A stretch of 64,000 nucleotides of DNA, taken from Candidatus Altimarinota bacterium (GTDB lineage: Bacteria > Patescibacteriota > Gracilibacteria > BD1-5 > UBA2023). Numbering within the stretch: position 1 is the first letter of the stretch; each line of letters opens with the position of its first letter. Position numbers and translations under genes: made by a program. Positions 974 to 15,188 of the stretch are shown here, in pieces. Under the pieces are notes generated by a model, which saw nothing but the letters and a program-made list of their open reading frames with translations, did not search any database and had not been told where the DNA came from. Location of the stretch: NCBI GenBank assembly GCA_014377305.1, contig JACMPW010000003.1, forward strand, positions 1 to 64,000. The letters run 5' to 3'.

Positions 974-1049
974 TGGTGGCGAGACCCGGACTTGAACCGG
1001 GGACACATGGATTTTCAATCCATTGCTCTACCAACTGAGCTATCCCGCC
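974..1049 (-). tRNA. tRNA-Phe (GAA)
   Basis: A 76-nt cloverleaf on the minus strand. The acceptor stem GGCGGGA pairs with TCTCGCC (one G-U), the D-arm contains AGCTCAGTTGGTAGAGC, the anticodon loop is TTGAAAA (anticodon GAA, phenylalanine), and the T-arm contains GGTTCAAGTCC. The 3' CCA is encoded in the DNA. It is the only tRNA I found in the window. Confidence 0.96.
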
Positions 1050-1276: not shown

Positions 1277-4200
1277 ATGTCAACTTCTATACAGCTCCTT
1301 GACTCAGCCTATGCTGCTCTAAAGAAACAGATAAATGTTCGAGATTTTCGTACTGCACCTCTCGGTGTTACCTTCAGGGAAAGAGCTGAAACGGCAATGC
1401 GTATCTGAGCTAGATCACCTCTCTCGCTTGCCGCATGGAGTGCTATGGAGATCCTCATGAGATCGAACCATGCTGGGTATATTCCAAAATCTCCACTATT
1501 CCTCTCTCAAGAAGATACAGAGAAAATGAGAAAACATATCGAACAATATCCAGAAATCTATGGACAATTTGCTCTCGATAAGTACTGGAGCGATTATATC
1601 GCTTGTCATGAGAATCCAAAATCCAAATGGTGACTCGTAAGCATCATCACAGAAGTATTTTGAGGTGATATCACTCATGAGGGTGCTATCAGTATAGGAC
1701 GAGTCAAGATCGATGGACACAGATACCTTTTTATCTGACATGATAAGAATCATAACCAGTGACGAGCCAAGACTAGTGACCATGAGGCAGTTGTGAAGAT
1801 GTTAGCGAAGGAGAATCTATGATCATATGATCGTGTTGTATTCGTTGTTGATACTCCTGGTGCTGACTCATGAAAACAAGCAAATGAGTCTCATCAGGCT
1901 GCGATGATGTCACAACTCATCACACAAGTCGTCACTCTCGACAAACCGACCCTCACGATCCTAACGGGAGAAGGTGGATCTGGCGGTGCAGAGGTATTTT
2001 TTGGTACAGATCTCAGGATAGCACTCCCGAATGCATATTTCTCGACAATACATCCGATAGGTCACTCTGCTATCATCAAGGGCGTATACTCACCAAAAGA
2101 GATCGCATGGAGACTCGGTGTCGACGCCCCACACCTCCAAGAAAAATGAGTTATAGATGCTATAGCAAATATATCTCTCGCTAAATCTGAACAACAAGAG
2201 CTGTCCAAAGAAGTAGGTATCATAAAAAGGGCACTCTCAGATATAATCACATCGAGCTTTGTTCATATAGAAAACCGGCTCTCGTCTGCATGAAATATTC
2301 CACAAGGTGCGAGACGCATATTTCGATGACTCGACTTCAGTCAGAAAACAGCAAATATGCTAACATCTAGAGGGAGAAATCTCGCAACAATAGAAACTGC
2401 AATAGCAGATATAGCAAGATATGAAGTTGCTGGAGTGGTATCGAGTTTTGATACTGTAGTTGGCATCCCAGAGCAGAGTATTATTGGAGAGCGATTATTA
2501 CAATTTTTTAGGAGTGAACTCGAATCATCTCATCTGACCAAATTCAATATCATCAAAGCAATCGATACATTGATCACGTACGTATGAGATAATGCCTATA
2601 GTTCGAAGCTTGATGCACCAGTAAGGAATAATATTGTATGACTTATCAGGTCGGAACTCTATAACTATCAGTCACTCTTTGAGACACTCTCCGAGCTCAT
2701 AGAACCGAAGAATTATGATCGCTTTTTCTCTACTTCTGGGACCCATGCCAAGAGACTCATATCTGGAGATCAGGATTGACTCAGTTATGATAGAGATCAG
2801 ATCGCAACATTCCTCAAAGAAATATACGATGCAGCTCAACCACATCACATACACCAATGATATGATAATTGGAAACTATCACATCTCTCTTGGGTAAATA
2901 CTATGTTCGAGTCTAATAGAGAATCTCTCATCGAACTCACGAAACAATTCAAACAAGTACACTATGATCTCCCTGAGACGATCGTATCACTAGCACTCCT
3001 GCTCGAGGAGAAGTTCATAGCATCCCTACAAGATGATTGATATAATCCTACATTATCAAGTAGCGACAGTCTCACCATAGACTTCTCGAGCAAGGCTACC
3101 TATGAAAGAATCCGATACTATGAGTCAATTAGAAAACAGATATTTTGAAAGTGTAATTTTAGTGAAATAGAACGCAAATTTTTCACATCTTTCACCCCCT
3201 CTCATACACTCTTCTCTCGTGTACCTACTACGAGTCTCCAAGATAGAACAAAGCTCGAAAAAAACTCAAATCCTACTACCATGACGGGTTGGGGTCATAT
3301 TGGCTATAATCTAGAGACAGATCACGGGATACAATATCGAAAAATGAATCACCATTTTGGTGTAGTGATGCTCGATTTCTCTATCGAGTGAGGATCTATA
3401 GATGGAGCTGCTGCAGCCAATATCATACAGCTCATAGAGCAGGCTGCGAGGACTGAACGTCCAGTGATCATGTTCCTCCAATCTGCTGGGATGTATGTAG
3501 ACGGTGGGCCAGAGGCAGTATCGTCGATGACAGCCATCAACTTTGCTATTGCAGAATATTTCCGAAAAACAGATGGCAATCCAGATTGTTGTATATTCTC
3601 TATACCACTCTGAGTCTGTACTGGTGGTACGATTGCATCATTTGCTCAGGCACCATGAGTTATCACTCTTCCTCTCTCACTCTCTGATATCCCCTTTGCT
3701 GGTCGTATTGTTACTCTCGATCAGCTCCCTCTCCAGTCCACTCTCGCAGATCTCCAGATTGGCAAGTGAAATATCAGAGGTATCATCATGAATCCTTTTA
3801 TCTCAGAGAGTACTGCTGAACAGTTCTATCAGGCACTCAGATCACGTGGTGTCGATATCGCGATGCCGACACGAGATCTCATATCATATCTTGAGGAGTA
3901 TCTTGATGGATCCGCCAATACAATAATCACCAGGAGAAATCAAATAACATCAGTAGTAAAGACAAATACTGAATTATTCCACCCGTACAAAAAAGTCGCT
4001 ATACTCAACCGTGGTACTATAGCAGCGAAAGCCATACGCACACTCGATGCTATGAAAAAGGACTATATGGTACTCACAACCCAAGCAGATAAGGATCTGC
4101 CCTACGTGAAAAAAGCAAGTAAAAAATGAAAATCTACACAAATCAGTGACTATATGATGGATGAATATGCTATCATACAGGCTATCCGAGATACTGGTTG

Positions 4201-5824
4201 TGATGCCGTATATCTCGGGTATGGATTCTGGTCTGAGCGAGATAGCTTCATTGCTCTATGCGAGGAGCATGGTATCGTCGTCATAGGCCCTAACTCTAAG
4301 AATGTAGAACAAATGGGCGACAAAATCACGGCTCGTACCACATTCAAGCAGGTACTCAACAAGGTGGAACAAGTAGAAAAGGAAAGAGAGAAGTATGCAC
4401 CGGCTCATGGATCAGACGATATACTCGGTTGAAATGGGATCATACCCGATACGAATACTGCCATCGATGTAGCTCAAAAAATCGGATATCCTGTGATGAT
4501 CAAAGCAGTATATGGCTGAGGAGGCAAGTGAATCGCAAGAATAGAAAGTGATGAGCAGATGCGAGAACAGTTCGATATGATGAGTCGTACTGCAGTAGAA
4601 AATTTTGGAAATGGATCGATGTATATGGAAAAGGCTCTCGATAATCAGAGACATATCGAGGTACAGATATTCTCAGATATACATGGCAACGCAGTCTCCC
4701 TCGGTGTACGCGATTGTACTACGCAACGCAATAGGCAAAAGATCATAGAGGAGACAGGTGATCTCGGTATAGATACTGGAGCTCTCTCTCGACTCCAGGA
4801 TATCGCTATTGCAGTTGTGAGAGATATTGGATATGTCGGAGCTGGGACATTTGAGTTCCTCTATGATCCCATATCTGGTACATTCACATTCATGGAGATG
4901 AATACTCGTATACAGGTCGAGCATACTATCACTGAGCAGCTGATTCACGATACTGGTATCGACAAGATTATCAATCTCGTAGGACTCCAATTCGAGGTAG
5001 CCAGTGGTGGAACTCACAAGATACTCGAGTCTACCACAGCAGCTCGACTGGCATGAGAGCTCCAGAAAAATAAGAAACATGTGATGGAGGTACGTATATG
5101 TGCTGAGGATCCAGCAAAAAAATTTGCTGGAGTGAGTATGGCAAAGATAAAAAAATGGACACTCAATCTCCCAAAAAATATCAGAAAAAAGGTATACTTT
5201 GAGACGTATCTCTGAATATGAGATGCCATAAATCATACCTCAAAATATGACTCTATGATCGGGCAACTCATCGTCAGTGGCGAATCACGTGAAGAGTGTC
5301 GAGCTAATATGATATCAGCACTAGGATCACTCAAAATAGAGTGAATCCCAACCAATCAAGAATTCGCCCTCAGGATTCTCCAGAGTGATGCGTTCCGAGA
5401 TCGTACACTTCGCATCAGTAGCATGGATAGTGAACCAGATCAGTTTTTTGCGAATCTCACACCCTACGATGATAAGCAGATAGAATCAATATCTGAGCTA
5501 CGTGAAGATTCTGTAGTGCTCCAAGAGGGTGAATATATAGTTCGTATGGGTCAAGATATGAAAATCATGAACCCCGCAATACCTAAAAAGATAACAACAT
5601 CTAATAAAAATGAGTCTCTATTTGAAGTGAGCATGAATAAAGTCAATACTCAGATCACTCTCTGAGAGCTCTGAAGTGATAACTTCTATATCAAAGATAG
5701 TACTGGAAAACGCATAGATCGTCTCCCGGAATGAGAATGGGAAATCATCACCAACTCTATAGCGATAGAATCAAAGCGATCATATAGCCGTGGAAAATGA
5801 CTCTTCATTATCAAACCTGTTTAG
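1277..5824 (+). CDS. Fused acetyl-CoA carboxylase: CT-alpha, CT-beta and biotin carboxylase in one chain
   Basis: A single 1515-residue frame joins three subunits usually made separately for the first step of fatty-acid synthesis (acetyl-CoA to malonyl-CoA). Residues ~130-310 match AccA: IGHDKNHNQG, VVDTPGADSGKQ, GEGGSGGAEV. Residues ~690-850 match AccD: GVVMLDFSIEGGSIDG, FLQSAGM, PLGVCTGGTIASFA; the AccD zinc finger is not seen. Residues ~903-1385 are an AccC-type ATP-grasp biotin carboxylase: KKVAILNRGTIA, VYLGYGFWSE, IKAVYGGGGKG (two of these glycines are TGA), EMNTRIQVEH. The ~130-residue tail lacks the usual EAMKM biotin-acceptor motif; the nearest match is DMKIMN with Lys1429. About 380 residues between CT-alpha and CT-beta are unassigned. 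A biotin-ligase gene starts two bases after the stop codon. Domain calls are firm; the biotin acceptor is unclear. Confidence 0.9.
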
Positions 5825-5825
5825 T

Positions 5826-6704
5826 ATGTTGATCAGAGATAATACACTCGCTTGATTTTTTGGTACTGAGATACCACTGGCGAACTCATTGGTCCCATCT
5901 CCATTCTGAGAACTCATAGAGTCTCCTGGAGATAGCAATATCATATTGCTCGGGAGAGAACGGACACTCTATGACTATGATCTGCAAGATATCCTTACAT
6001 TCTGTGAGAACTATAGACACAGTATATTGACTGTACTCTGTGAGTGACTCTCATCTGCACGATGAAATGGAAAAAGACGATGGATCAATACTCAGCATGG
6101 GAAATCCAATTTTAGTGTCAATATATTCACGACACTCGATAAAAATCAATACCAATCAGTACAAGATCTCCAAGAGCGTATAGCCATGGGGATTATCGAT
6201 ACACTCTCTTGAATCAATAGCGACAATGTCAGTATTGCATACCCATTTCATTATTTGCAGGATGGTGGCAAGATAGCGGGACATCTCGTTCAGAAAAAAA
6301 GCATCAGTAAAGATACTGAGTTCTTGCGTATCGGTATCGGTATCAATACCGATACGCAGTCTCCTCTACTCCCCGATAATGACGAGCTCGTACAACATCT
6401 CTATCGACAACCTACTACCCTCTCTCTCGAGCCAAGCCGATGGATAGCACTCGCGACCGATCTACGAGACAATATCATACATAGCCTGGAATCAAGTAGA
6501 CACGATGAGTATATTCGATCGCTCAGTATAGGGCACTGAGATAGCGTGGAGATAAGTCATGATGATGGAACTATATCATTCTGAGAGAGTGTGATATGAT
6601 GACAATTCGACACTATCGATGCAGATGGGAGGATATATCTCATATGAGAGATGAATCCTCTCAGACTCTCTGATTATCATATACGGCTCATATCACATAA
6701 ATAA
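5826..6704 (+). CDS. Divergent biotin--protein ligase (BirA/BPL-like)
   Basis: Predicted to charge the biotin acceptor of the carboxylase encoded directly upstream (1 base between the stop and this ATG, clearly one operon). 292 residues. Family features: a GNGKRRW segment at about residue 80 standing in for the GRGRxGRxW ATP loop, then DGGKIAGHLVQ with the conserved lysine, and FLRIGIGINTD, the usual GIGINV strand. The catalytic-domain motif KWPND is replaced by AYPFHYL, which is odd. There is no N-terminal helix-turn-helix, so no BirA-like repressor role. A small C-terminal beta domain follows (DSVEISHDDGTISFGESV). Function is inferred from these motifs plus context; the substitutions make catalysis less certain. 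Confidence 0.75.
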
Positions 6705-6709
6705 GCATC

Positions 6710-7144
6710 CTATAGTTGCATCCGTAGCGGTGACTCGATAGTCCACATCTCATCATATTCCTCATCGGTCTCATGATCATAGCCGAGTATATGTAGAATC
6801 GAGTGGATGATGAGGATCTCGCACTCTCGCTCACAACTATGTCAGTGTTCCAGAGCTTGGGATACTATACGTGACTCACTCAGGATGATCTCCCCTGCGA
6901 CCTGATCTGCACTGAGATCTGAGAAGTCATCAAAATAATGAAAAGAGAGGACATCCGTCGTACTATCAATACCTCTGTGATCACGATTGAGAACCTGGAT
7001 CTCATAATCAGATAAGAATGCGATATTGAGGATTCCATGTTGTGGGATATCTAGCGAAGATGAGATCATCTCAAAAATTCGAGCAATACGAGATTCATCG
7101 ATAGGAAATGACTCAGGATGATTGAGGAATATAAAAGAAAACAT
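6710..7144 (-). CDS. ybeY: Endoribonuclease YbeY (rRNA maturation factor)
   Basis: Single-strand-specific metallo-endoribonuclease acting in 16S rRNA 3'-end maturation and ribosome quality control. 144 residues, typical size. The C-terminal zinc motif H-x3-H-x5-H is complete (HSILHILGYDH), and the upstream block TTDVLSFHYFDDF with a following GEIILS strand is typical. The residue before HSCERECEIL is glycine coded by TGA, so only code 25 yields the full motif. It lies 3 bases from murB in a minus-strand operon and converges with the biotin ligase gene. Confidence 0.93.
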
Positions 7145-7147
7145 ATT

Positions 7148-8047
7148 TTATTTTTTACTTGGGATATTTTCTATAATTCTCACCTCATTTTCGAGTTCGA
7201 TCCCTGTTTCTTTTTTGACTATTTCCTGAGTGAGTCAGACGAGTCAGATGAGATCAGATGGCGGACATGATAGTCCATCACTCATGAGGAAGTTCGCATG
7301 CAGAGTTGACCAATAGGCTCCACCATGGCGATATCCCTTGAGACCCACTCGCTCGATGAGAGAACCTGCAGAATTTTCTTTACTCGGATTTTTGAAAAAT
7401 GAACCACAGCTATTTCCTTTTGGCTGTTGATGCTCACGGAAGTATATATTGTCGACATCAGAGTGATATTTTTCATGTTTCTCACTGAGGTCAAAAGTAG
7501 CAGAAATCAAAAAAAGATGCGGATTATCCTTGAGGAAAGAATGCCGATATGAGAATCACATTTCTGATTTTGGTATAGTTTTCTGTTCATTTGAGAGCAT
7601 ATCGTACACCTCACATGAGACAAAATTTGACTCCGTCTCGAGACCAAAACACCCAGCATTGCCATATATAGCTCATCCGATAGAACCAGGGAGCCCGATG
7701 AATCGATGCCAGAGAGGTTGATAATATTTGGTTTCGAGCTGATTCGCTATCTCCCAGATAGACTCATCCGAGCTCGTATAGAGTATATTTGAGACGGTAT
7801 CATACTGCCATCCTGAGAGGGAGTTCTTGATAACTACTCACTCATACAGGTCGGATGCAAAGAGGAGATTGGTACCTCCACCGATGATAAGGAGTGGGAT
7901 CCGCTCATTTTGCGTCCACTGATATATCTCCGCGAGTTTCGCTATATCATCCTCACTTGAGAGCTCATAGAAATAGTCAGCAAAAACACGAGTCTGATAT
8001 CCAGAATAGTGACCGATTTCATGATTTTTGAGGAGAAAAGAAAGCAT
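7148..8047 (-). CDS. murB: UDP-N-acetylenolpyruvoylglucosamine reductase (MurB)
   Basis: FAD-dependent reductase that completes UDP-N-acetylmuramic acid in peptidoglycan precursor synthesis. 299 residues. FAD-binding motifs: PLLIIGGGTNLLF near residue 50 and GLPGSIGGAIYGNAGCFG near 115. The catalytic region has GNSCGSFFKNP, where the serine serves as proton donor, and the substrate-binding block LIERVGLKGYRHGGA with HANF. In-frame TGA glycines occur after DLYE and in the C-terminal region. Presence of MurB implies a peptidoglycan wall. It sits between yidD and ybeY, all reading the same way. Confidence 0.95.
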
Positions 8048-8067
8048 AAGGAAATTGTAGGGAAAAT

Positions 8068-8319
8068 TTATTTTTTGTCTACCGGATCATACCCTCACTG
8101 ACTCCATGGATTGCATCTCGTGATTCGAGCAATTCATTTTGCTGTTCCGATAATTGCTCATTTTTTCTCAACTGCCTCGATCATATAGTCACTACAACTC
8201 GGGATATGTCGGCAGTATGGAGTATGATCGAGCCCTCGAGCCCAGAATGAGTGATCAGGTGAGAGGGTTTTTTGATAGAGACGGACTGCTCTGATAATGG
8301 ATTTTTGGCATATATTCAT
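8068..8319 (-). CDS. yidD: Membrane protein insertion efficiency factor YidD
   Basis: Small (83 residues) protein that assists YidC-dependent membrane insertion at the inner face of the membrane. The family signature is clear: RLYQKTLSPDHSF, CRHIPSCSDYMIEA and ARITRCNPWSQGGYDP, where two glycines (in KKGAII and SQGGYDP) are TGA-coded. The ATG lies one base after the TAA of the upstream TPR gene, so translation is likely coupled. This gene is missed entirely under the standard code. Confidence 0.92.
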
Positions 8320-8320
8320 A

Positions 8321-8938
8321 TTACCAGTCTTGGGTTATAGTCGTAGATCAGCTCGACTGAGCTCGCTCGATGAGTCGCTCGAGATCACCACGATCGAGTC
8401 ATGCAGATGATGTAGCATTGCCGAGATATTTGTCTCGCTCTCAGGCAGTTTTTTTGAGTTCTATTTTTTTGAGTTCGACGAGCGTGGATCCTGAGTGAGA
8501 GAGAGGAGATTTTTCGGTAGTACCAGATCCTACTTTGGATTGTTGCTGTATCATCTTGATATACGCTATCTTCGCTGTCACTCTCTCAGATGAGGCAGAT
8601 GAGAGTGATCGATCATACATACGTATCACATCATCGAGTGATCCGCTCGTCGAGTAGATGAGATCACCGTAGAGCTCAGATACCTCTGCTTTCTTATTCA
8701 CAGTTGCATCGTTGAGGATGAGTGAGAGTACTTTTTTTGCATCACTATATTGTCCATTATTCGATTTCCAGATTGCCTCATTGTAGTGAGCTACCCATTT
8801 TGGATCTCATGAGTATTGGGTCATATCGTGAACTATATTTGCATATATGAGGGAGCTATTCATGATCAGTGATTGTCTCTCATTCACGATAAAAACAGCG
8901 AACATAGAGAAGAGAATGAAGAGTATTTTTATTTTCAA
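8321..8938 (-). CDS. Membrane-anchored TPR-like protein (BatC-like)
   Basis: 205 residues: an N-terminal membrane anchor (KILFILFSMFAVFIV) followed by a helical region. The segment WVAHYNEAIWKSNNGQYSDA, then VLSLILNDATVNKKAEVS, resembles TPR hairpins. The start is TTG because an in-frame TAA lies five codons upstream; this TTG overlaps the last codons of the VWA gene by ten bases. The C-terminal part is Ser/Thr/Lys-rich and probably flexible. Context (a VWA membrane protein directly upstream) recalls aerotolerance BatB-BatC pairs, but that comparison is inference. An internal ATG (MFAVFIV) would shorten the anchor. Confidence 0.7.
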
Positions 8939-9762
8939 CTTTTGATAGTATTATATCGGAATCTTGGCCATACTGATCCTAGAGTGATCAAGAGAACTCA
9001 CCATATTATGGAATATGATGATGGTATTGTATTCGAGTTTTTTGTTTTGGCAATATGAGCAAGGATATCCTCTCTTGCTCGGTCGGATAGTATGAGGTCT
9101 GCACCTATTGACTCCGATACACGAGAGAGGCGATCTGTATCACGAACAGAGTTGACCCGCTGGCCATCTGACTCCTTGTAGCGGGGACGTCCATCACTAT
9201 CATAGCCGAGGAGTATAGGTCATCAGGTACGAGTGCCAACTCCGATGAGCGAGATGGTGGGGGGAGTCACCCATCCAGAGAGAGTCGTAGTAGTGTCAGA
9301 GAACTCACCATCCGTGAGCCATACAATAGAGAGACGCTGTGTACTCCCATAGATGAGACGGATCATCTCGAGTGGAGTCGATATGCTACTGCCACCACCA
9401 TGACTCTCTATATTGATCCCATGTACTACGTCTGAGAGAGTCGGAGTATTGTCTGTCATAGGGAGCTCGAGTCGAGCTCATAGAGCTGCTGTCATGATAG
9501 CCTGTTCACCTCATCTCATAGCTGATCCAGATGTGACTATCTGCTTCGCAAAATCCAACCGAGATATCAGGAGTCCACTCCCTCCAGATATATCTGTGAC
9601 TGCCATGGAGAGAGAGTTATCGATGACCCAGAGTGTCCGCTCAGTCCCTCTATCCAGACTACGAGTGAACACAAATACAACACAGATGAGTCCAGACACG
9701 ATCAACACAAATCGAATACACTCAGATGTGAGAGATGATGAAAAATTGGTGGGGAGATTCAT
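8929..9762 (-). CDS. VWA-domain membrane protein (BatA/BatB-like)
   Basis: 277 residues. An N-terminal membrane helix (residues ~16-34, RFVLIVSGLICVVFVFTRSL) leads into a von Willebrand A domain. The metal-ion site is visible: WVIDNSLSMAV (DxSxS, residues ~48-52) and WLTDGEFSD. Another membrane helix is likely at the C-terminus (WGVLLITLGSVWPRF). Family knowledge: such proteins bind divalent metal and act in membrane-associated assemblies, often with a MoxR AAA ATPase; a MoxR gene lies elsewhere at 39.4 kb. It overlaps the downstream TPR gene, which suggests the two products work together. Confidence 0.8.
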
Positions 9763-9774
9763 AACTGTTATTTT

Positions 9775-11976
9775 TTATTTCACGATCACACTTCTCAGTC
9801 CTGGCTGTCTCGTCCACTCGACCGATCCAGTATATGACTCACATGCTGGGATATCGAGTGTATATCTCCAGCTCTTGGATGTACTCGCACCAACAGGTGT
9901 CTCGATGAGCGTCGAGAATACGGTCGCATGTTCACTACTGGTAACTGTGATATCTGATCCTGCTCCAATGAGAGTAGATCAGAGTGGTACATAGACTCGG
10001 ACGAATGCTCGATTTTTGCCATCACCTTGGATGAATTCGAGTTTCGCTTGTTCATTTTTATCCGTGATGTTGAATTGTTTAAAGTATGAACGCAACTCCT
10101 CAGTATCTGATTTGGCGAATGTATGATGAGTCGATAGGGTGATAGTATTCTCATATTTACAACCCTCGATTTTTTTCACAGTTGCCTGATAGGTACGGTC
10201 GATATAGCGATCACTCTTGTTCCCTGAGACCGATGTCCAGAGAGGATATATCCAGTTGGGCGATGAGGATTGTTGCCATGGGAGTTTCTTTTGATACTGA
10301 GCGAGCCATGTATCTATCTCAGTATCACGAGAGGCGAACAATATCTCACCATCTTGCCTATTTTTCTCCATGATATCGAGGATATCGAGTGATAGATTTT
10401 TGGATTGGATATGTGAGAGGAGAGCAGATCCAAATCGGAACAATATATCTTTCGGAGTATCGACCTGTGCATATCTATTCTCGACGAGTGTCGACATGAG
10501 ACGTGAGAAGTTGTGCGAGTCAAATGATACGGCTACACCTGAGAGAGTGATCGGTCCTGTCTTATCTAGGATATCCTCGATGATCCCCTGATGGATAGCT
10601 ATCGCCGTCGTCACACTCGCATCCCCAGAGCGTTCGATGAACGAGTTTGCTCGATCGAGTGTCTCATGGAAATCTGGATAATAGTTCACATCTCGCAGTC
10701 CATAGCTACCAGTCAGGAGTGCTATACCGGGTGGTGGTATCTCTTTGTAGGGATAGAGATTCCAGTCATAGTAGTAGACATCGTCCGCATGGTAGTCGAG
10801 GATATTGCCCTTGTAGAGAGTAAAAGAGAGGATAGAACCTGGGAATCCGCCATTGGCTCGTATCTCATCTCGGTTCTGATTGAACACGATATATCTCTGT
10901 GGATTGGTATGTCCGAGCATATTCTCGATCTGAGTATCATTCGTGAGTGACCAATCGAGCAATGTTGCGAGTCGGGAGAGTGTTTTTCCTATCTTTTGCA
11001 TACGGATAGTACGCTCACCAGTCGGTATCACTCCTCCATATATCTCACCTGCAGACTGGAGTTCGGTTTTTGCTTGCTCGAGTATAGCCTTGTTGGCTAC
11101 GATCCAATCGGTCGGATTCTCGATACCGAGTGAGGCAAGCGGAGAGATGTCACGAGCTGCTGCTCGATAGGCGAGTGGATCTACGATATCGCGAGTGACT
11201 GTAGATCCCGAGAGAGTTGCAGGGAGTGCCTGAGCAATCATATCGAGTCCACGAGTGAGTGTGAGCCCACCTGCTGCGGATCGTCTCACTGTATCGATCT
11301 GCCCTATCGGTATCCATGAAAATGGAGAAAAAAGGAAACTCGCTCTCTCAAAATCTCCACGAGCCGAGCGGATCATAGTGCGGATGGTCTCAGGTGTACG
11401 CACTCAGGCGAGATCCTGGAGCGTCTGATATCCATGTGTCAGAGCATAGGCGACATACGAGAGTACTGGGATCGAGAATACGAGGAGTCATACCACTATT
11501 CGACCGATTTGTTTGCGATGATGTCTATACCAGCTCTGAGCTCAGTGGAGCACACGGCGAATCACGAGCGAGAGAGGGAGCTCTCGAGCATAGAGATCAG
11601 GATAGGTAGTAGTAGAGAGGATAGGATCACGACGCACATCGAGTGCTCCATAGGGAATAGAGAATGGATCTACGATATCGAGTGTCCTCGGACGAGACAC
11701 CATATCCAAGAGTCCAGCCTCCCAACGCGTAGGATCGACCACCTCTGGGATGGCGAGATCGAGCGTCTCTGTGGTATGGAACCTGTTGATGCGTATTTTC
11801 GCATCTTCTCTCAAATCTATAGGCTCACTAGTATTGATCGAGAGTATATCAGAGACCTCCTCACCATGTCGAGCGAGATCGAGTGTACGAGTTGCTGTCA
11901 TAGGGAAAACCTGGGCAATATCGATCACACTTCCCTCCCCTTTTTGTATGTCGAGACTGGTGGTTTTTTGGCTCAT
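9775..11976 (-). CDS. DUF4012 domain membrane protein
   Basis: 733 residues. A cytoplasmic N-terminal region of ~170 residues is followed by a membrane helix (VVGLLVFSIPVLSYVAYAL) and a large, presumably extracellular DUF4012 domain, recognised by NPQRYIVFNQNRDEIRANGG, FPGSILSFTLYKGNI and the DVNYYPDFHETLDRAN block. DUF4012 proteins are common in CPR and Gram-positive bacteria near cell-envelope polysaccharide genes; no activity is established. The start chosen is ATG 11974-11976, preceded by AAGGAG at good spacing; an upstream in-frame ATG would add 19 residues. It leads the minus-strand cluster running down to ybeY. Confidence 0.85.
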
Positions 11977-12005
11977 CCGCTCCTTGTAAAAAATCAAAAA
12001 TAGAT

Positions 12006-12017
12006 ATACTCGAGTAT
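12006..12017. promoter_or_regulatory. 12-bp palindrome between divergent genes
   Basis: ATACTCGAGTAT is a perfect palindrome in the 68-base gap between the divergent DUF4012 and DUF2130 genes. It could be an operator or part of overlapping divergent promoters. Related TACTCA/TGAGTA sequences occur near 20.06 kb and 22.12 kb. Confidence 0.4.
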
Positions 12018-12044
12018 AGTCAAAAGTATACAACTATCAAGCCT

Positions 12045-13205
12045 ATGTCCAACAATATCACCTGTCCCAACTGTGGTCACCAGTTCTCACTCTCCGATGT
12101 CCAGAAGCACGAGCTCGAGCATATGCGAGGCGAGATGCAAGAAACGATAAAAAATGAGATGCAAAAGGACTTCGATGAGCGGGCTCGCAGCTACGCCATG
12201 AAGGTCAAGGCCGAAGCCGAGGAACAAGCTCGCAAACAAGCCATCGAACTCGACAGCTACAAGAAGCGGGATGAGGAGTCACGAGCCAAGGAGATGCAAT
12301 ATCTCAAGGAAAAACAAGTCATGGAGATGCGAGCCAAGGATATGGAAATCGAGAAGGAACGAGCCATCATCGAAGCCAAGAAACTGATGGAAGTCGATAT
12401 CAAGATCCAAATAGAGAAGGAGCAAGCCTACAATACGGACAAGCTACGACTCGAGTATGAGAAACGAATGGCCGAGATGCAGAAGCAACTCGAGATGACA
12501 CAAAAGGCGGTCGAAGATGCGAATCGCAAAGCCAACCAATGATCGATGCAGATCCAAGGTGAGATCCAGGAGGATGCACTCCGCGAGCTCCTCATGACCA
12601 ACTTCCCTACTGATACGATCTCCGATGTCGAGAAAGGGATAAAGTGAGCCGATGTCATCCAAGAAGTCAGGAATATGAATGGAACTGTCGGGATCATCGC
12701 CTGGGAGTCGAAGAATACCAAGGCCTGGTCAGAGAGCTGGGTGGACAAGCTCAAAGAAGACCGACTCCGAGTCAACGCCGATATCTCGATCCTTGTGACA
12801 GCAGTATTACCAAAATGAGTGGACAAGTTCGGCCTCTACAAGTGAGTCTGGCTCGTCGAGTGGTCATACGCCCTCCCGATCGCCATCATGCTCCGTGGGC
12901 AGATCGAGTCGATGTCGCATCTCCGCACGAGTCTCGTGTCCAAGGATGAGAAGATGGAGGTCCTCTACAACTATCTCACGAGTGCTCGGTTCAAGGACAA
13001 GGTCGAGAACATCATCGATGCGTTCCGTCAGATGCAGGATCAGGTTGCTGAGGAGCGTCGAGCGTTCGAGTCACGGTGGAAAAAGCGGGAACAACTCCTC
13101 GAACAAGTGATCAAAAACACAGGCGGGATGTATGGGGATCTCGGTGGGATGCTGGGAGGAAAGTTAGAAAAGGTGGAGTATCTTGAGTTAGGAGGAGGGT
13201 TGTAG
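12045..13205 (+). CDS. DUF2130 family protein (zinc ribbon, coiled coil, nuclease-like domain)
   Basis: 386 residues. It opens with a zinc-knuckle (ITCPNCGHQFS), then a long charged coiled coil (residues ~25-165, rich in K, E, M, A), then the DUF2130 core: EDALRELLMTNFPTDTI, GIIAWESKNTKAW, LPKGVDKFGLYKGVW. The core has the look of a PD-(D/E)xK-type fold (D..WESK), but catalysis is not shown for the family as far as I know. Three in-frame TGA glycines. The gene is noticeably richer in G/C than its downstream neighbours. Likely role in nucleic-acid handling, by inference. Confidence 0.82.
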
Positions 13206-13232
13206 AATTTAAAAACTAATTCATCTATCAAT

Positions 13233-13415
13233 ATGATCAAATTTTGAACTATCTTAACATTACTTACTCTATTTCTTGCCTCTTGTTGAGAAACAAAGCC
13301 AGTAAATGATCCATTAAACTTATTTAATGATAAGCCTGCGACTAAAATTGAATGAGGAACGGAACAAGATCCTTTAAATTTATTTTGAAGTGGAGCTAAT
13401 CCTAGCAATAGATAA
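13233..13415 (+). CDS. Small putative lipoprotein with internal repeat
   Basis: A 60-residue protein visible only when TGA is glycine (four TGA codons). It begins MIKFGTILTLLTLFLASCGE: a short charged n-region, a hydrophobic core and an LASC lipobox with Cys18, the classic signal for lipid attachment and cleavage. The mature ~43 residues are hydrophilic and contain a repeated unit, DPLNLFND and QDPLNLFGS. It lies just after the DUF2130 gene and before the fic gene, in an A/T-richer stretch. Function unknown; I infer an envelope-anchored peptide. Confidence 0.65.
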
Positions 13416-13426
13416 TCTACTGTTCT

Positions 13427-13475
13427 AATATACGCCTTTTAGTCGATTTGAATTTAATCTCAAATATACGCCTTT
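13427..13475. repeat. 13-bp direct repeat upstream of fic
   Basis: AATATACGCCTTT occurs at 13427-13439 and again at 13463-13475, 36 bases apart, inside the A/T-rich 160-base gap before fic. Three TTGTGC(A/G)(C/T)AT-like copies follow at about 13488, 13530 and 13568. Possible regulator sites; nothing else is recognisable in this gap. Confidence 0.5.
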
Positions 13476-13575
13476 CTTATAAAAATTGTGCACATACATA
13501 ATATTATACACAATTTTTTTGATTTTTTGTGCATATTCTATATTATATACACTATAATCCTTATTTTTTGTGCGT

Positions 13576-14700
13576 ATGACATTTGATCCACAATCACCGA
13601 ATAATTCTCTCCTCTTAATCTCAGAAGGAAGAATGCAAGAGATATCAGAAGATATTGAGATTATTAAGTATTTAAATGAGGCCAATAAAAGACTTTTTAA
13701 GCTCGAGAAAGCTATTAACTCTATACCAAATCCTAAGATTCTACTTGATTTTATCTCTATCCCTGAATCGGTAGCCAGTAATGCGGTGGAAAATATACAT
13801 ACCACCGTAGATGAAGCATTTCAGGCTGAAGCCATCAACGACCCATCCAAAATATCAAAAGCAACAAAAGAAACACTTCACTATAAAGAAGCACTCCTCT
13901 ATGGCTATAATCAAATAAAAACTCGAGGAGGCATTACGGTTCTCGATATCAAAAAAATGAATTCAATAATCGTATGATACGAGAGTGACTTTTATTCCAG
14001 TCCATGAAAAAAAATAGAAACAAGTTCCAAAGAAACGCTCTATACGCCACCACAATGAACTGAGCTCATCAATAAACTAATGGATAATTTCTGTGAATAT
14101 TTCAATAAAAAGGAACTCATTATCAACTGAGAAGGTGAGGATATACTATTGCTAGCTCCTATTCTACACTATCAATTTGAAGCTATTCACCCATTTGGGG
14201 ATGGGAATGGGAGAGTGTGAAGAATATTGCTTGTACTTTTTTTAACGCTTCATGGGATACTTTCATATCCTGTATTATTTTTGAGTCAGTATATCCATAA
14301 GTATAAGACAGATTATTATTCAACATTACGAGGCATGGATTCTATGAAAAAATGATCCCTTAAGGAACTTTCAAGTTTTATACTTTTGATCATGATGAAT
14401 CAATGAACTCTTACAGAAATAACGGTATTGGAGATACAAGTATTGCAACAAAAAATAAAAAATGAACTTAAAAAATGATCTGATCTCAAAAGAATATCAG
14501 AAATTATGGATTTCTTATTCATGAAACCCTATTATTCTGTAGATGGGCTCAGTATATTTATGAAAATTCATAGAAATACTGCTTCAACTTACTTGGCAAA
14601 ATTTGTTGAACTTGGCTTCATAAATGAGGAAAAAGTAGGAAGAAATAAACTGTTTTATTTCCCTGAATATTTTGAACTTCTTATTAAGGAAAGTAGATAA
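13576..14700 (+). CDS. Fic family protein (AMP-transferase-like) with winged-helix C-terminus
   Basis: 374 residues. Fic enzymes transfer AMP or related groups onto protein hydroxyls. The active-site motif HPFGDGNGRVGR is intact at about residue 205, its last glycine being TGA-coded. An N-terminal S-x-A-V-E-N-I segment (residues ~66-74) matches the autoinhibitory (S/T)xxxE(G/N) helix of class II Fic proteins, so the enzyme probably regulates itself. The C-terminus (SVDGLSIFMKIHRNTASTYL, then LVELGF-like helices) looks like a winged-helix domain, as in many Fic proteins that bind DNA. The start could also be the GTG two codons upstream. Target unknown. Confidence 0.9.
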
Positions 14701-14722
14701 CTTTGACTTCCCATCTCCTTTC

Positions 14723-14748
14723 AATATACTTGATCAGTCAAGTATATT
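14723..14748. promoter_or_regulatory. Palindromic operator before the MarR-type gene
   Basis: Perfect inverted repeat AATATACTTGA / TCAAGTATATT, 11-bp arms around a 4-base centre, ending 15 bases before the MarR ATG. Size, symmetry and position fit an autoregulatory MarR operator. Binding is inferred. Confidence 0.65.
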
Positions 14749-14762
14749 TTTAGTTTATTTTT

Positions 14763-15188
14763 ATGTCACTCTCCCCTACTCTCTCGTTTTTTATCTCACT
14801 CTCTCGGATCGAGACAGTACTCTCCCGCAAGTTCGATGCCAAGTTGGGTGGACTCGGATTCTCGGATTTTCTCATACTGTATGCGCTGTCAGTGGCGCCA
14901 GATGGACGACTGCGGCGGATAGATCTCGCGGATACGATCGGACTCACGGCGAGTGGGATTACGCGGCTCCTCCTCCCGATGGAGAAGGTGGGACTCGTCA
15001 GGCGTGAGGCACATGACGGCGATGCTCGGGTGAGCTATGTACTGATCGCTCCTGGTGGTGCGGCTCGACTCTCGGAGGCGATAGAGCGAGCAGAGCTCTA
15101 CTGTAGTGATATCATCGACCCTGCCGAGGTGACCGAGATCGAGCGTGCGAATACTATCATACAAAAGATGAGCAAGCGGATAGGGTAG
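14763..15188 (+). CDS. MarR-family transcriptional regulator
   Basis: 141 residues, typical MarR length. The winged helix is recognisable: RRIDLADTIGLTASGITRLL (recognition helix) followed by EKVGLVRREAHDGDARVSYV, the beta-wing with the family's D-x-R-A pattern. C-terminal helices would form the dimer interface. No TGA codons are used; all its glycines are GGN, and it is distinctly richer in G/C than the adjacent fic and orphan genes, so acquisition from another organism is possible. It is preceded by a palindrome that may be its operator. Ligand and targets unknown. Confidence 0.88.
   Translation: MSLSPTLSFFISLSRIETVLSRKFDAKLGGLGFSDFLILYALSVAPDGRLRRIDLADTIGLTASGITRLLLPMEKVGLVRREAHDGDARVSYVLIAPGGAARLSEAIERAELYCSDIIDPAEVTEIERANTIIQKMSKRIG

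Follow-up and report, generated by a model that had tools for sequence, protein, structure and literature searches.

A single open frame near the start of a 64,000-nucleotide stretch of DNA from a Candidatus Altimarinota bacterium (hereafter the window) appears to place most of an acetyl-CoA carboxylase (ACC) on one chain, which raises the question of what kind of enzyme this CPR bacterium possesses and where in it the biotin would be carried. NCBI table 25, in which TGA encodes glycine, is the correct code for this genome, because code 25 gives the window a coding fraction of 0.91, versus 0.38 for code 11, and 15 of the 21 alignable in-frame TGAs of dnaE and accC lie opposite glycine in E. 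coli. Despite this use of TGA, ARAGORN reported no tRNA with the anticodon UCA in any contig of the window genome (G000); such a tRNA may be encoded in the unassembled part of the genome or have been missed by the program. Read with table 25, the frame runs through 32 in-frame TGAs. Upstream of it, the window displays a DUF6671 protein (2-877; PF20376, 1.2e-96) and, just before the ACC gene, a tRNA-Phe(GAA) (974-1049, minus strand). The ACC gene, its parts and the gene overlapping its end are as follows:

1277..5824, plus strand: fused acetyl-CoA carboxylase, 1515 residues (code 25; Pfam, NCBIfam, full-length homologues)
1619..2206, plus strand: CT-alpha (AccA-like), residues 115-310 (Pfam ACCA over residues 136-310, 1.7e-21; PDB 9kkm; alignment with E. 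coli AccA)
2207..3346, plus strand: linker, residues 311-690, predicted with very low confidence to be mostly helical (AF2 pLDDT 32)
3347..3946, plus strand: CT-beta (AccD-like) without a zinc ribbon, residues 691-890 (NCBIfam accD over residues 693-836, 1.5e-5; PDB 9kkm; alignment)
3986..5419, plus strand: biotin carboxylase (AccC-like), residues 904-1381 (Pfam; NCBIfam over residues 904-1383, 4.7e-104; catalytic residues)
5420..5821, plus strand: C-terminal tail, residues 1382-1515 (134 residues), a proposed cryptic biotin carrier (Foldseek on the AF2 model)
5639..5641, plus strand: codon of Lys1455, the candidate biotinylation site (invariant in four homologues; predicted beta-hairpin turn)
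5790..6704, plus strand: divergent BirA-like biotin-protein ligase (TIGR00121, 3.9e-8; motif alignment; co-occurrence with the ACC)

The preliminary description of this locus had read the chain as an AccA-like part, about 380 unassigned residues, an AccD-like part devoid of its zinc finger and an AccC-like part; the Pfam and NCBIfam matches recover the same parts at the same coordinates, and the alignment with E. coli AccD confirms that the Cys4 zinc ribbon before CT-beta is absent. The linker has no match in Pfam, NCBIfam or PDB, and the structure prediction for it together with CT-beta is uninformative. The biotin carboxylase (BC) part features all three of its Pfam domains, namely Biotin_carb_N, CPSase_L_D2 (the ATP-grasp) and Biotin_carb_C, and its ATP-grasp and catalytic residues, in the numbering of E. 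coli AccC (K116, K159, E201, K202, H209, E211, Q233, K238, E276, E288, N290, R292, Q294, V295, E296 and R338), are retained without change in each of the four homologues that we aligned. In CT-alpha, the oxyanion-hole motif GEGGSGGA (residues 231-238) is conserved and matches E. coli AccA, and in CT-beta the motif CTGGTIASFA, starting at residue 781, retains the conserved TGG, with GG..ASFA and an FAG further on in agreement with E. coli AccD. A search of the window genome with PF01039 gave no match, which shows how an entire ACC can escape family searches in such genomes. Judged from its sequence, the protein is a nearly complete ACC on a single chain, which is both rare and intact, in a recoded CPR lineage.

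We found the full-length fusion in 4 of 353 genomes of the class: the window genome, G059 and G058, which belong to one genus, and G054 from another genus of the same family, with the three homologues being 84, 61 and 50% identical to the protein of the window over the full length. No further carrier came to light in a sample of 380 genomes spread across the phylum, in agreement with the suggestion that such a fusion is rare in CPR bacteria. The sole match in a contig search was a Candidatus Gracilibacteria contig with a full-length fused ACC, which appears to be the contig of G059; phages and viral contigs yielded no ACC relatives, and plasmids only separate subunits, with no match covering 80%. 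Three genomes of another CPR family within the sample of 380 (G389, G370 and G406) have frames of 532-612 residues that match biotin carboxylase but contain no CT domains, and AccC has likewise been reported for Minisyncoccus (PMC12281837). A 1225-residue frame with biotin carboxylase and biotinyl matches in a genome of the same class (G141) is probably a pyruvate carboxylase.

The gene pair in G054 bears on its origin. The contig carrying it (C60) clearly uses code 25 (coding fraction 0.97 vs 0.65), and its ACC (1483-6051) and ligase (597-1640) genes contain no TGA among 148 glycine codons. Their GC3 (0.78 for the ACC and 0.71 for the ligase) stands against values of roughly 0.42-0.64 for most other frames of the contig; other GC3-rich genes there are likewise free of TGA. 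On this compositional evidence, a recent import of the pair into G054 from a standard-code donor is possible. The hosts on which cultivated Gracilibacteria grow are Gammaproteobacteria (PMC9166423), and a donor from this group, to which Shewanella belongs, is a plausible guess.

The part of the enzyme that is not immediately apparent is the biotin carrier, whose absence, like the ligase gene next to the ACC, goes unmentioned in the preliminary description. The tail corresponds in length and position to the biotin carboxyl carrier (BCCP) region of the single-chain AccADCB enzyme (PDB 9kkm); it has no Pfam match and no credible PDB sequence match, does not contain the EAMKM motif and was aligned to BCCP by hhalign with a probability of only 0.3%. 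The AlphaFold model of the tail, computed from two sequences, reached a mean pLDDT of 62, with 70-80 over most strands. None of its Foldseek matches is significant (best E 0.38), with about half of the first 50, including the first two, being biotinyl or lipoyl domains, either alone or as part of a longer chain; a search of the viral library gave a single match with a probability exceeding 0.1, again to a lipoyl domain. Within the tail, Lys1455 is invariant in the four homologues and is placed by the model at the turn between the strands SLFEVSM and VNTQIT, 78 residues past the end of the BC match, while the EAMKM lysine of 9kkm (K1466) lies 87 past the end of its own. By sequence alone the register of Lys1455 is not significant, either against the 9kkm hairpin (rank 17-32 of about 900-1100 windows) or against canonical BCCPs (second of 22 conserved-lysine windows). 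We also considered K1429 (in QDMKIM) as the biotin site but do not favor it, because the motif is MKM-like in no more than the two closest proteins and lies too near the start of the predicted domain; visual inspection raised the idea of an FHA-like fold in the tail, which was dropped for want of Pfam support. Taken with its position, the model suggests that the tail is likely to be a diverged biotin carrier.

The adjoining gene points in the same direction. It encodes a putative, divergent biotin-protein ligase with no DNA-binding domain, which scores 33.1 bits against TIGR00121, under the curated cut-off of 83.1. It shares this family match with BirA, and keeps the equivalent of the catalytic-site lysine K183 of E. 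coli BirA in a KxAGxL motif, whereas the biotin-binding loop GRGRRG of BirA is replaced by RGxGxR and the WPND by YPFH or YPLH. In each of the four carriers the ligase gene neighbors that of the ACC, and full-length matches to the ligase among the 353 class genomes are confined to these four, a fifth (G307) being weak and partial. Since the ligase adjoins the ACC and occurs at full length only where the ACC does, something in these genomes should be biotinylated; as no other substrate of the ligase is known, its retention favors the fused protein itself as the target.

Considering these observations together, we favor, as the somewhat more probable account, a single-chain ACC related to AccS/AccADCB, in which the carrier has diverged beyond recognition along with its ligase. 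Under this account, the BC domain would use ATP and bicarbonate to carboxylate a biotin borne by roughly the last 100 residues, which would form a diverged biotinyl domain with Lys1455 as the candidate attachment site; the neighboring ligase would load the biotin there, and the carboxybiotin would then swing to the site shared by CT-alpha and CT-beta, at which acetyl-CoA would be converted to malonyl-CoA. Against this account weigh the missing EAMKM motif, the lack of a significant sequence or Foldseek match for the tail, and the failure to find type II fatty acid synthesis (FAS) or a BioY importer in these genomes. In the fuller version of this proposal, the EAMKM-less carrier would receive its biotin at Lys1455 from a ligase that is dedicated to it and has diverged with it, the two forming a separate pair for a single-chain carboxylase whose host lacks type II FAS; this version we put forward tentatively, as somewhat less likely than not.

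The alternative that best survives is that the carrier is a separate protein, either too divergent for detection or encoded in an unassembled part of the genome, with the tail being only structural. The tail indeed has no significant sequence similarity to BCCP, and the assemblies of the four carriers are 80-98% complete. Against this, no separate carrier is recognizable in any of the four genomes. An HMM of five canonical BCCPs and one diverged biotin-attachment protein found nothing above chance in the 917,877-base assembly of the window genome, its top match (E 0.06) being a membrane-fusion protein, and PF00364 retrieved no BCCP from the four fusion-carrying genomes, the matches that we read being partial and situated in efflux-pump membrane-fusion proteins; candidates for a separate BCCP on contig C12 of the window genome were rejected as such efflux proteins. 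Moreover, the close relative AccADCB bears its carrier at the same C-terminal position, and we accordingly rate a separate carrier as rather unlikely.

A further alternative concerns the substrate, which could be another acyl-CoA, making the protein an acyl-CoA carboxylase unrelated to fatty acid synthesis. The preliminary description had proposed looking for fabD, fabH and acpP elsewhere in the genome: phmmer found no FabD or stand-alone ACP in the window genome, nor FabF, FabB, FabZ, FabI or AccB; a KAS III is present on contig C14. G058, which has the ACC and the ligase, has no match to ACP, KAS I/II or KAS III. With type II FAS not detected in these genomes, the enzyme might act on another acyl-CoA. 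However, both CT domains fall in the AccA/AccD branch with AccADCB as the nearest relative, and the propionyl-CoA carboxylase beta chains score below 9kkm in the PDB search with CT-beta; hence we regard a different substrate as unlikely. The KAS III of contig C14 lies in an operon-like cluster (7013-14941) along with a PlsC-like acyltransferase bearing an ACP-like domain, an AurF-like di-iron protein (2.4e-32), an OleD-like reductase (2.7e-21), an AMP-ligase resembling those of olefin pathways and an Sfp-type phosphopantetheinyl transferase, which we read from these similarities as a putative Ole-like lipid or polyketide pathway in a CPR bacterium. Close relatives of this KAS III among the 353 class genomes are restricted to G054 and G087. 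A general link between the ACC and this Ole-like cluster was considered and rejected, because G058 and G059 have the ACC with no KAS III match. Regarding the supply of biotin, we did not find a BioY importer, and no biotin synthesis is reported in freshwater Gracilibacteria (PMC9166423).

It is also conceivable that the enzyme is in decay or has been repurposed, no longer carrying biotin or working as a full carboxylase, as might be read from the loss of the canonical carrier, the patchy distribution and the lack of a detectable downstream pathway; the conservation of the active sites down to 50% identity, the intact frame in all four genomes and the retained ligase make this very improbable. 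An assembly-induced fusion of separate acc genes, which the preliminary description had named as a potential refutation, can be dismissed, since the same full-length protein is found on independent contigs in four genomes.

Few short motifs are as strongly conserved as that for biotinylation, and biotin ligases are widely held to accept substrates from other kingdoms. If the carrier and the ligase have indeed drifted together in this lineage, they would constitute a natural orthogonal pair that tests how far the motif can change. The enzyme also raises the question of the use to which malonyl-CoA would be put in a CPR cell without type II FAS.

Among known systems, the heteromeric bacterial ACC of E. 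coli (AccA/B/C/D) shares the BC and CT catalytic residues with the CPR protein, but comprises four separate proteins and has the AccD zinc ribbon and a canonical BCCP, in all of which the CPR protein differs. Much closer is the 1517-residue 'Acetyl-CoA carboxylase multifunctional enzyme AccADCB' (PDB 9kkm and 9w4a), in which the A-linker-D-C-tail order is the same and a stretch of similar length (about 280-734) likewise separates the CT domains; the two chains are collinear, the BC match ending at 1377 in the CPR protein and at 1379 in 9kkm. In contrast to the CPR tail, that of 9kkm is a canonical BCCP (1429-1512) with the EAMKM motif around K1466. The Shewanella oneidensis AccS (SO_0840), also of 1517 residues, matches AccA, AccB, AccC and AccD (PMC4793157, Table 2); we infer from the name and length that 9kkm is Shewanella AccS. 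The CPR protein resembles AccS as a single chain of nearly equal length with AccA-, AccD- and AccC-like parts, and differs from it in having no recognizable counterpart of the AccB match (3e-08 in the same table); AccS moreover coexists with a separate AccB and with FAS II in full. In Shewanella, the acc gene for a 'multifunctional enzyme' adjoins OXA-48-type genes (PMC3480492). The CT-alpha/CT-beta/BC order, which had been thought unusual, is thus rare in CPR bacteria but not new, having already been described for AccS/AccADCB; of the refutation set out in the preliminary description, an architecture both common and already described, the second half applies. What is unusual is the combination of a chain devoid of a canonical carrier with a divergent ligase of its own. 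In the PDB, both CT halves match 9kkm best, with 9.5e-19 for CT-alpha (the next being 3.1e-13) and 3.8e-19 for CT-beta (the next being 2.3e-5, with E. coli and S. aureus AccD at ~2e-5), and because of this the CPR and AccADCB fusions probably constitute one family and did not arise independently.
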